Assembly (NCBI GenBank): GCA_021789095.1
Contig: JAJYJX010000127.1
Span: 1-6,893, forward strand
Origin: a bacterium
GTDB lineage: Bacteria > JAMCPX01
DNA: 6,893 bases
Direction of reading: 5' to 3'
The notes beneath the pieces were generated by a model, which saw nothing but the letters and a program-made list of their open reading frames with translations, made no database searches and was not told where the DNA came from. The first letter of the stretch is position 1. The number at the start of each line of letters is the position of its first letter. Positions 4,126-6,528 of the stretch are shown in pieces. Position numbers and translations under genes: made by a program.

Positions 4126-6063
4126 TTGGCAAAGAGGCTCTACTGGAAGGGGTTTAAGCAAGCAGTTCATGACAGTAACGTATACGCATTTATGAGGGCA
4201 CACAAGGTCAGGGATTTCGATCATCTGGTCAAACGCTCGCAGAGTGATATAGAATGGTTCTGGGATGCTGTAAACAAATATCTTGGTATCGAGTGGTACA
4301 CGCCTTACAAGAAAGTCCTTGATACAAAGAGGGGCATTGAATGGGCCCAATGGTTTTCCGGAGGCAGGATCAACATTGTCCACAACTGTATCGACAAGCA
4401 CATAAATACCTACAGACGCCACAAGGTTGCCCTTATCTGGGAAGGCGAAAACGGCGAGACAAGAAAGCTTACGTACCTTGACCTGTATCAGACAGTTAAC
4501 CGCACTGCAGAAGGCCTCAAAAGCCTTGGAATAAAAACGGGTGATGCCGTCGGCGTGTTCATGCCAATGCTTCCTGAAACAGCAATAGCACTCCTGGCAA
4601 TTGCGAAGATCGGCGCTATCTTTATACCCGTATTTTCAGGGTATGGTCCCGAAGCGATCGCATCAAGGCTCAATGATGCATCTGCAAAGATACTTTTTAC
4701 CGCGGACGGGTTTTACAGAAAAGGCAGCATCGTTGAGATGAAAAAGACGGCTGATGCGGCCCTAAGCATGAGTCCGGCAGTGAAGCATGTGGTTGTCCTC
4801 AAGAGGCTGGGCATTGACATACCATGGACAGACGGCAGGGACATAGAGTGGTATAATTTTATAAAGGATAAACCGTCCGTTTCACAAACAGAAAAGCTTC
4901 CTTCAGAAACACCGTGGATGGTCATATACACATCGGGAACAACGGGAACGCCCAAGGGCGCGGTACATACCCATGCAGGCTTCCTTGTAAAACAGGCTGA
5001 AGAAATAGCTTTCCAGATCGATATGAAGGATCAGGATATACTTTTCTGGTTCACCGATATGGGATGGATCATGGGTCCCTGGGAGGTCGTAGGCGGCCTT
5101 GCAATGGGAGGTACCCTGTTCTTCTATGAAGGGGCACCTGACTGGCCAAAACCGGACAGGTTATGGGACATGGTAGAACATCACAGGATAACAATCCTCG
5201 GCATTTCCCCAACCGCCGTGAGGGCACTCATGCGCAGCGGCGATCACTGGGTAAAGGTGCACGATATCTCGAGCCTGCGTATGTTCGGATCTACGGGAGA
5301 ACCATGGAATCCTGATCCCTGGATGTGGCTGTACAGGAACATCGGCGCCGGGAGGTGTCCGATCATAAACCTTTCGGGAGGGACAGAGGTCGGTGCATGC
5401 TTCTTATCCGTTCATCCTGTTAAACCGCTTAAGCCGTGTTCCCTGGGGGGACCGGCACTGGGTATGGATATAGATGTCTTTGATGATAATGCAAAACCTG
5501 TCAGGGGCGGCGTTGGAGAGCTCGTTTGCAAGAAACCATGGCCCGGTATGACCAGGGGTATATGGCACGATCCGCAGCGCTACATTCAAACCTACTGGGG
5601 CAGGTGGGAGCATACCTGGGTGCATGGTGACTGGGCATCCGTAGATAAGGACGGCTACTGGTTTTTGCACGGCAGATCCGACGATACGATAAAGATAGCG
5701 GGTAAGCGTGTCGGCCCTGCAGAGGTTGAATCGGTCATGGTGTCCCACAGGGCGGTTTCAGAAGCCGCTGCAATAGGTGTGCCGGATGAATTAAAAGGAG
5801 AGGCGATTGTGTGCTTCGCTGTATTAAAACCAGGGCATTCCCCCACAGAAGAATTAAGAAATGAATTGATAGCACTCGTATCCTCATCGCTCGGTAAATC
5901 ACTGATGCCGAAAACCGTAAAATTCATATCAGACCTCCCGAAGACCCGCAACGCAAAAATCCTCAGAAGGTTTGTAAGGGCAAAATATCTCGGACAGGAG
6001 ATCCCGGACACATCCTCCGTCGAGAACCTTTCCTCGCTAGATATGATTGGACAGGCTATATAA
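4126..6063 (+). CDS. AMP-forming acyl-CoA synthetase (acetyl-CoA synthetase-like)
   Basis: A 645-residue ANL-superfamily enzyme that activates a carboxylic acid with ATP to an acyl-adenylate, then forms acyl-CoA. Motifs in order: phosphate-binding YTSGTTGTPKG (268-278), FGSTGEPWNPDPW (387-399), SGGTE (417-421), HGDW (500-503), GRSDDTIKIAGKRVGP (516-531) and the C-terminal PKTRNAKILRR (605-615) with catalytic Lys611. Asp502, Arg517, Arg528 and Lys611 match Asp500, Arg515, Arg526 and Lys609 of Salmonella Acs, so it should be active. Lys611 is also where related enzymes are switched off by acetylation. Length is near that of Acs (about 650), but the acetate-pocket WWQTE of true Acs is replaced by SGGTE, so the acid is probably not strictly acetate. 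The start is TTG at 4126, with AGGAG (4112-4116) 9 bases before it; the ATG at 4098 is out of frame. The stop is TAA. Confidence 0.92.
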   Translation: MAKRLYWKGFKQAVHDSNVYAFMRAHKVRDFDHLVKRSQSDIEWFWDAVNKYLGIEWYTPYKKVLDTKRGIEWAQWFSGGRINIVHNCIDKHINTYRRHKVALIWEGENGETRKLTYLDLYQTVNRTAEGLKSLGIKTGDAVGVFMPMLPETAIALLAIAKIGAIFIPVFSGYGPEAIASRLNDASAKILFTADGFYRKGSIVEMKKTADAALSMSPAVKHVVVLKRLGIDIPWTDGRDIEWYNFIKDKPSVSQTEKLPSETPWMVIYTSGTTGTPKGAVHTHAGFLVKQAEEIAFQIDMKDQDILFWFTDMGWIMGPWEVVGGLAMGGTLFFYEGAPDWPKPDRLWDMVEHHRITILGISPTAVRALMRSGDHWVKVHDISSLRMFGSTGEPWNPDPWMWLYRNIGAGRCPIINLSGGTEVGACFLSVHPVKPLKPCSLGGPALGMDIDVFDDNAKPVRGGVGELVCKKPWPGMTRGIWHDPQRYIQTYWGRWEHTWVHGDWASVDKDGYWFLHGRSDDTIKIAGKRVGPAEVESVMVSHRAVSEAAAIGVPDELKGEAIVCFAVLKPGHSPTEELRNELIALVSSSLGKSLMPKTVKFISDLPKTRNAKILRRFVRAKYLGQEIPDTSSVENLSSLDMIGQAI

Positions 6064-6067
6064 TAAA

Positions 6068-6096
6068 TTGTTTACTTTCACAAAATAAGTCATACT
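6068..6096 (+). promoter_or_regulatory. Possible weak promoter of the RRM gene
   Basis: TTGTTT (6068-6073), a 17-base spacer and CATACT (6091-6096) fit a weak sigma70 site in the short gap after the synthetase stop. The RRM gene may equally be read from the synthetase transcript, as the gap is only 54 bases. A strong AGGAG (6104-6108) lies 9 bases before the ATG. Confidence 0.3.
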
Positions 6097-6117
6097 TTAA
6101 AAAAGGAGAAAAAAAAC

Positions 6118-6378
6118 ATGCTAAAATTGTATGTGGGCAACCTGACGTTTAACACCACTGAAGAAGAAGTAAAGGGGCTGTTTGAGAAAATTGGTGCAGT
6201 TCAGAGCGTTACCATAATCAAGGATAAGTACTCGGATCGCTCGAAAGGCTTTGGATTCGTTGAAATGACAAACGATGAAGAAGCAAAGAAAGCTATCGAA
6301 CAGGTCAACGGCACGGACTTCAAGGGAAGAAGCATCAGGGTAGCTGAGGCAAAACCAATGGAGAAAAAAGAAGGCTGA
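6118..6378 (+). CDS. Single-RRM RNA-binding protein, stopped before its Gly-rich tail
   Basis: An 86-residue protein that is almost entirely one RNA recognition motif: RNP2 LYVGNL (4-9) and RNP1 KGFGFVEM (43-50) carry the aromatic residues (Tyr5, Phe45, Phe47) that stack on RNA bases. Bacterial relatives (Rbp family of cyanobacteria, delta-proteobacteria and others) bind single-stranded RNA and are often cold-induced; their targets are mostly unknown. Many carry a short glycine-rich tail after the RRM. Here TGA at 6376-6378 ends the protein at KKEG, yet the same frame continues for 20 codons of exactly such a tail before TAA at 6439. The gene may thus be truncated by a nonsense mutation, misread in sequencing, or partly read through. 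The RRM itself is complete and should fold. Start chosen at the ATG behind AGGAG. Confidence 0.93.
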   Translation: MLKLYVGNLTFNTTEEEVKGLFEKIGAVQSVTIIKDKYSDRSKGFGFVEMTNDEEAKKAIEQVNGTDFKGRSIRVAEAKPMEKKEG

Positions 6379-6441
6379 AGCTACGGCGGAGGCCAGAAAA
6401 AAGGTGGATACAGAGGCAACAGCAGGGGGGGATACAGGTAA
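6379..6441 (+). other. In-frame Gly/Arg/Tyr-rich tail beyond the TGA of the RRM gene
   Basis: Immediately after the TGA the unchanged frame reads SYGGGQKKGGYRGNSRGGYR and stops at TAA (6439-6441). Eight of 20 residues are Gly, and Arg, Lys and Tyr supply most of the rest. This composition matches tails of bacterial and plant glycine-rich RRM proteins and would be unlikely in random non-coding sequence. With the tail the protein would be about 107 residues, an ordinary length for the family. Confidence 0.7.
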
Positions 6442-6454
6442 TAAAATTTGATCG

Positions 6455-6482
6455 TTTCCAAATCGGGTAATTTTGTTATAAT
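6455..6482 (+). promoter_or_regulatory. Sigma70-type promoter of the Fe-S protein gene
   Basis: A perfect -10 TATAAT (6477-6482) is preceded after 16 bases by TTTCCA (6455-6460), which matches four of six -35 positions. Initiation near 6489 would give a leader of about 90 bases that includes the hairpin at 6529-6555. Confidence 0.5.
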
Positions 6483-6528
6483 AAAGTTACTCATATACCG
6501 GGATAACCGGAAACAGCATAAATAGTTA

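Follow-up and report, generated by a model that had tools for sequence, protein, structure and literature searches.

A gene for a small RNA-binding (RRM) protein has likely been truncated by a recent, lineage-specific nonsense substitution, which removes a probably dispensable tail from a protein of known family; the evidence asks for no new mechanism. The gene lies in the 6,893-nucleotide stretch of DNA analysed here (the window), a complete contig (C62) of a 2.15-Mb draft genome (G000; 203 contigs, ~92% complete). Its product matches RRM_1 over the entire profile (positions 1-70 of 70, 87 bits vs a cut-off of 20.7), which places it among the single-RRM proteins, and its homologues within the phylum are 82-92% identical. 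Translated from 6100 to 6500, the frame reads ...PMEKKEG, the TGA, 20 sense codons (6379-6438; SYGGGQKKGGYRGNSRGGYR) and two successive stops, the first being the TAA at 6439-6441. A preliminary description of the window had taken these Gly/Arg/Tyr-rich codons for the gene's own tail; the frame translation reproduces its coordinates and composition, and syntenic orthologues have homologous tails that are translated (Table 1).

Table 1. Features of the RRM locus (positions are those of the window unless a contig is named).
Feature	Position	Strand	Remarks
Acyl-CoA/acetyl-CoA synthetase-like gene (ACS)	4126..6063	+	Pfam AMP-binding, ACAS_N; marks the conserved site of the RRM gene
Leader with conserved AAGTCATACTTTAAA and GGAG ribosome-binding site	6064..6117	+	Common to the RRM genes of relatives
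RRM protein, 86 aa, ending at TGA	6118..6378	+	PF00076
TGA replacing a glycine codon	6376..6378	+	GGC/GGC/GGA in L004/L005/L006
Gly/Arg/Tyr-rich tail remnant behind the TGA, 20 codons and TAA	6379..6441	+	Homologous to translated tails of syntenic orthologues; probably untranslated
3' UTR hairpin common to paralogous RRM gene	6465..6492	+	z -5.2; copies only at RRM genes
Hairpin copies	6465-6492; G000:C65:16508-16534 (-); G003:C54:39056-39082 (-)		3' UTRs of two paralogous RRM genes and of an RRM gene in another genus

The comparison set comprised nine genomes of the phylum, all of one family, and RRM homologues were present in all nine. The ACS gene, ~80% identical in relatives, also lies upstream of the RRM gene in five of them (G001, G006, G007, G005 and G002). 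Three of these carry the orthologues with the closest tails, and at the position of the TGA they have the glycine codons GGC (G001, locus L004), GGC (G007, L005) and GGA (G006, L006), the last being one base from TGA. The preliminary description had noted that GGA to TGA takes one base, and had proposed aligning orthologues from related genomes. Their frames run on to a terminal stop as GGDYGGGHRKSGFKGGNSRGGGYR (L004), GGSFGGGSRKGGFRGGNSRSGGY (L005) and GGGFGGGSKGGYKGGNSRGGGYR (L006), where the window has a glycine, the TGA, SYGGGQKKGGYRGNSRGGYR and the TAA; the matching orthologue tails end in GGYR or GGY, and differences in tail length keep the frame. G005 and G002 share the upstream ACS gene with the window, but their tails are different and charged. 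None of the three orthologues ends at the point of the TGA without conserved Gly-rich codons behind it, and no interior stop was found in any further RRM homologue across the nine genomes. A search of contigs from other genomes yielded only RRMs of other phyla (best 64% identity) and no closer orthologue. An open stretch of 20 codons would be unremarkable by itself; its homology to the orthologue tails rules chance out. Because the orthologues read on past this position with glycine and no other interior stop occurs among the homologues, the tail is inherited coding sequence and the TGA is private to this genome. The locus thus has the marks of a nonsense allele: a sense codon in three syntenic orthologues, one base from a stop, with a homologous frame behind it.

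On this reading, the ancestral protein would have been a single RRM with a short Gly/Arg/Tyr-rich tail behind it, and a single G-to-T change in this lineage, or in the sampled strain, would have made a TGA out of a glycine codon, most simply GGA. If the organism truly carries this base and termination is efficient, as we infer, translation would end at residue 86 and leave out the final 21 residues (that glycine and the 20-residue tail). The loss would probably be mild or neutral, because the RRM fold is complete without the tail and a second, tailed RRM paralogue (L002) is intact in the same genome. The end of this gene is also a site at which the protein would tolerate a genuine nonsense change.

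The ancestral architecture resembles that of the cyanobacterial Rbp1 type, in which one RRM_1 domain of ~80 aa is followed by a short Gly-rich tail and some genomes hold two or more RRM genes. The orthologues have this Gly-rich C-terminal region in an uninterrupted frame; the window differs in that its tail is cut off by the TGA, and its genome comes from a different, small phylum. As it stands, the window protein is like the naturally untailed RRMs (Synechocystis Rbp2 and short RRMs of other phyla, e.g. L015 and L020), which end no more than ~10 residues past the RRM fold, except that here a new stop has produced the short form, and the tail can still be read after it. In Synechocystis, Rbp1 without its Gly-rich tail supported growth at 15 C as in the wild type and accumulated to more than twice the level, Rbp2 naturally lacks such a tail, and the RNA preferences of tailed Rbp1 and untailed Rbp2 were not significantly different (PMC9333190). 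By analogy, the window protein may behave like Rbp1. On the preferred reading, the locus is a clean natural case of an RRM protein that has lost its tail, which agrees with the published dispensability of the Rbp1 tail for cold function, and it matters little. Annotation will list an 86-aa protein in a lineage that normally makes one of ~108 aa.

A less probable but serious alternative is an artefact: the TGA would stem from sequencing, assembly or mixed strains in this draft, probably metagenome-assembled, genome, and the organism would keep the glycine codon and the full-length tailed protein. The sense codon in all relatives fits this reading, as do a tail that looks fully constrained, the division of the genome into 203 contigs and the small size of the contig, all of which the window covers; an intact tail behind the stop is equally expected from an assembly error or from readthrough. 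Against it stands a stop-codon screen of ~0.8 Mb of this genome versus ~0.7 Mb of its relatives, with ~190 non-overlapping alignments and ~61,000 residues (approximate figures, as a few antisense ORFs remain). It gave no credible interior stop: inspection placed all 15 flagged cases within antisense ORFs or ahead of a start codon. The RRM gene itself is too short to serve as a query in this screen. Stop-creating errors therefore seem rare in this assembly, which suggests a real substitution rather than an error.

The state of the tail bears on the age of the stop. In the tail, pN is 0.11-0.16 between the window and its relatives and 0.13-0.16 between relatives with intact tails, and pS between the window and the three orthologues is ~0.7-0.8 in both the RRM and the ACS gene, at or near saturation. 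In a simple and rough neutral simulation that started from the window tail, only 20 codons long, the probability of acquiring at most three amino-acid changes without a new stop was ~0.36 at 0.1 substitutions per site but 0.03 at 0.2, so that such an outcome becomes unlikely beyond ~0.1-0.2 substitutions per site. As a rough estimate from these 20 codons, coding constraint probably acted on the tail during most of the branch. Since the tail is undecayed although synonymous sites are near saturation, the stop is recent, erroneous or read through, and the undecayed tail fits these three alike.

Readthrough is the third of these, and the preliminary description had listed it, in regulated form, beside a nonsense change and a sequencing error. 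The glycine codons of the relatives bear out the latter two as candidates; regulated readthrough found no support, as the TGA occurs in no relative and no UGA-decoding machinery was found in the genome. In such a scheme most ribosomes would stop and give the untailed RRM, and a fraction would insert an amino acid and give the tailed form; we regard this as very unlikely, and likewise a version confined to this lineage, evolved from the glycine codon, that would set how much of the RRM protein carries a tail in one species. Among bacterial stop codons UGA is generally the leakiest, and the tail behind it is as conserved as in relatives, which a recent stop explains equally well. The base that follows the TGA is A and not C, the inefficient termination context being UGA-C (PMC5289835). 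The RNA after the stop lacks notable structure, folding only slightly better than shuffled sequences (z -1.6), and no Rfam family was found between 6000 and 6893. As in programmed readthrough or selenocysteine insertion, the window has an in-frame UGA followed by coding-like sequence; unlike in those systems, the stop is not conserved in orthologues, which have glycine codons there, and the decoding machinery was not found. A suppressor tRNA was rejected because none of the 39 tRNAs found and typed in G000 has a UCA anticodon. A selenoprotein gene was likewise rejected: in this ~92% complete genome, the only match to tRNA-Sec (RF01852) over the cut-off is tRNA-Ser(UGA), and all SelB matches fall below theirs. 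Re-initiation on the tail was discarded too, the tail having no in-frame ATG, GTG or TTG (a GTG at 6404 lies in another frame).

Reassignment of UGA to a sense codon, for which this single in-frame TGA is the sole argument, can be dismissed, since TGA is the terminal stop of 63 of the 172 aligned genes (~37%), the conserved genes screened contain no credible interior TGA and RF2 is present. TGA is thus an ordinary terminator in this genome. The two parts of the RF2 gene, prfB, sit at different contig ends (L032 at the end of G000:C97 and L035 at the end of G000:C80), and the gene shows the CTT-TGA +1 frameshift site that is characteristic of RF2 autoregulation. The preliminary description was right that the neighbouring genes use other stops (TAA in clpB, the MBL-fold gene and ACS; TAG in two minus-strand genes), but this carries little weight given the 63 aligned genes that end in TGA. 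Separately, tRNA-Trp (CCA) was not found among the 39 tRNAs of G000 and is present in the relative G001 (L227); its absence is probably an assembly gap.

Altogether, a nonsense substitution remains the preferred reading of the TGA, and the hairpin in the 3' UTR common to RRM paralogues may merit more attention. The 27-nt element forms a stable hairpin at all three genes that carry it (z -5.2 at the window gene, -4.6 at L002 and -3.8 at L003), and its copies are identical apart from two loop bases, with diverged flanks. No further copies were found in the nine genomes with up to 3 mismatches, so that it occurs only at these RRM genes. It has no T-run of an intrinsic terminator and may be a regulatory RNA element on RRM mRNAs.

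The 5' side is also shared. A leader of the form (A)AGTCATACTTTAAA(C)AAAGGAG precedes RRM genes of both tail types, in the window and upstream of L002-L010, and is itself preceded by TTTACTTT in several of them; it probably combines a shared promoter and ribosome-binding site. Within the RRM body (6118-6375), pS is lower to genes of the other tail type (0.37 to L003, with zero over codons 69-85, and 0.53 to L002) than to the positional orthologues (0.70-0.79), which suggests that the body is a mosaic produced by past gene conversion between RRM paralogues.
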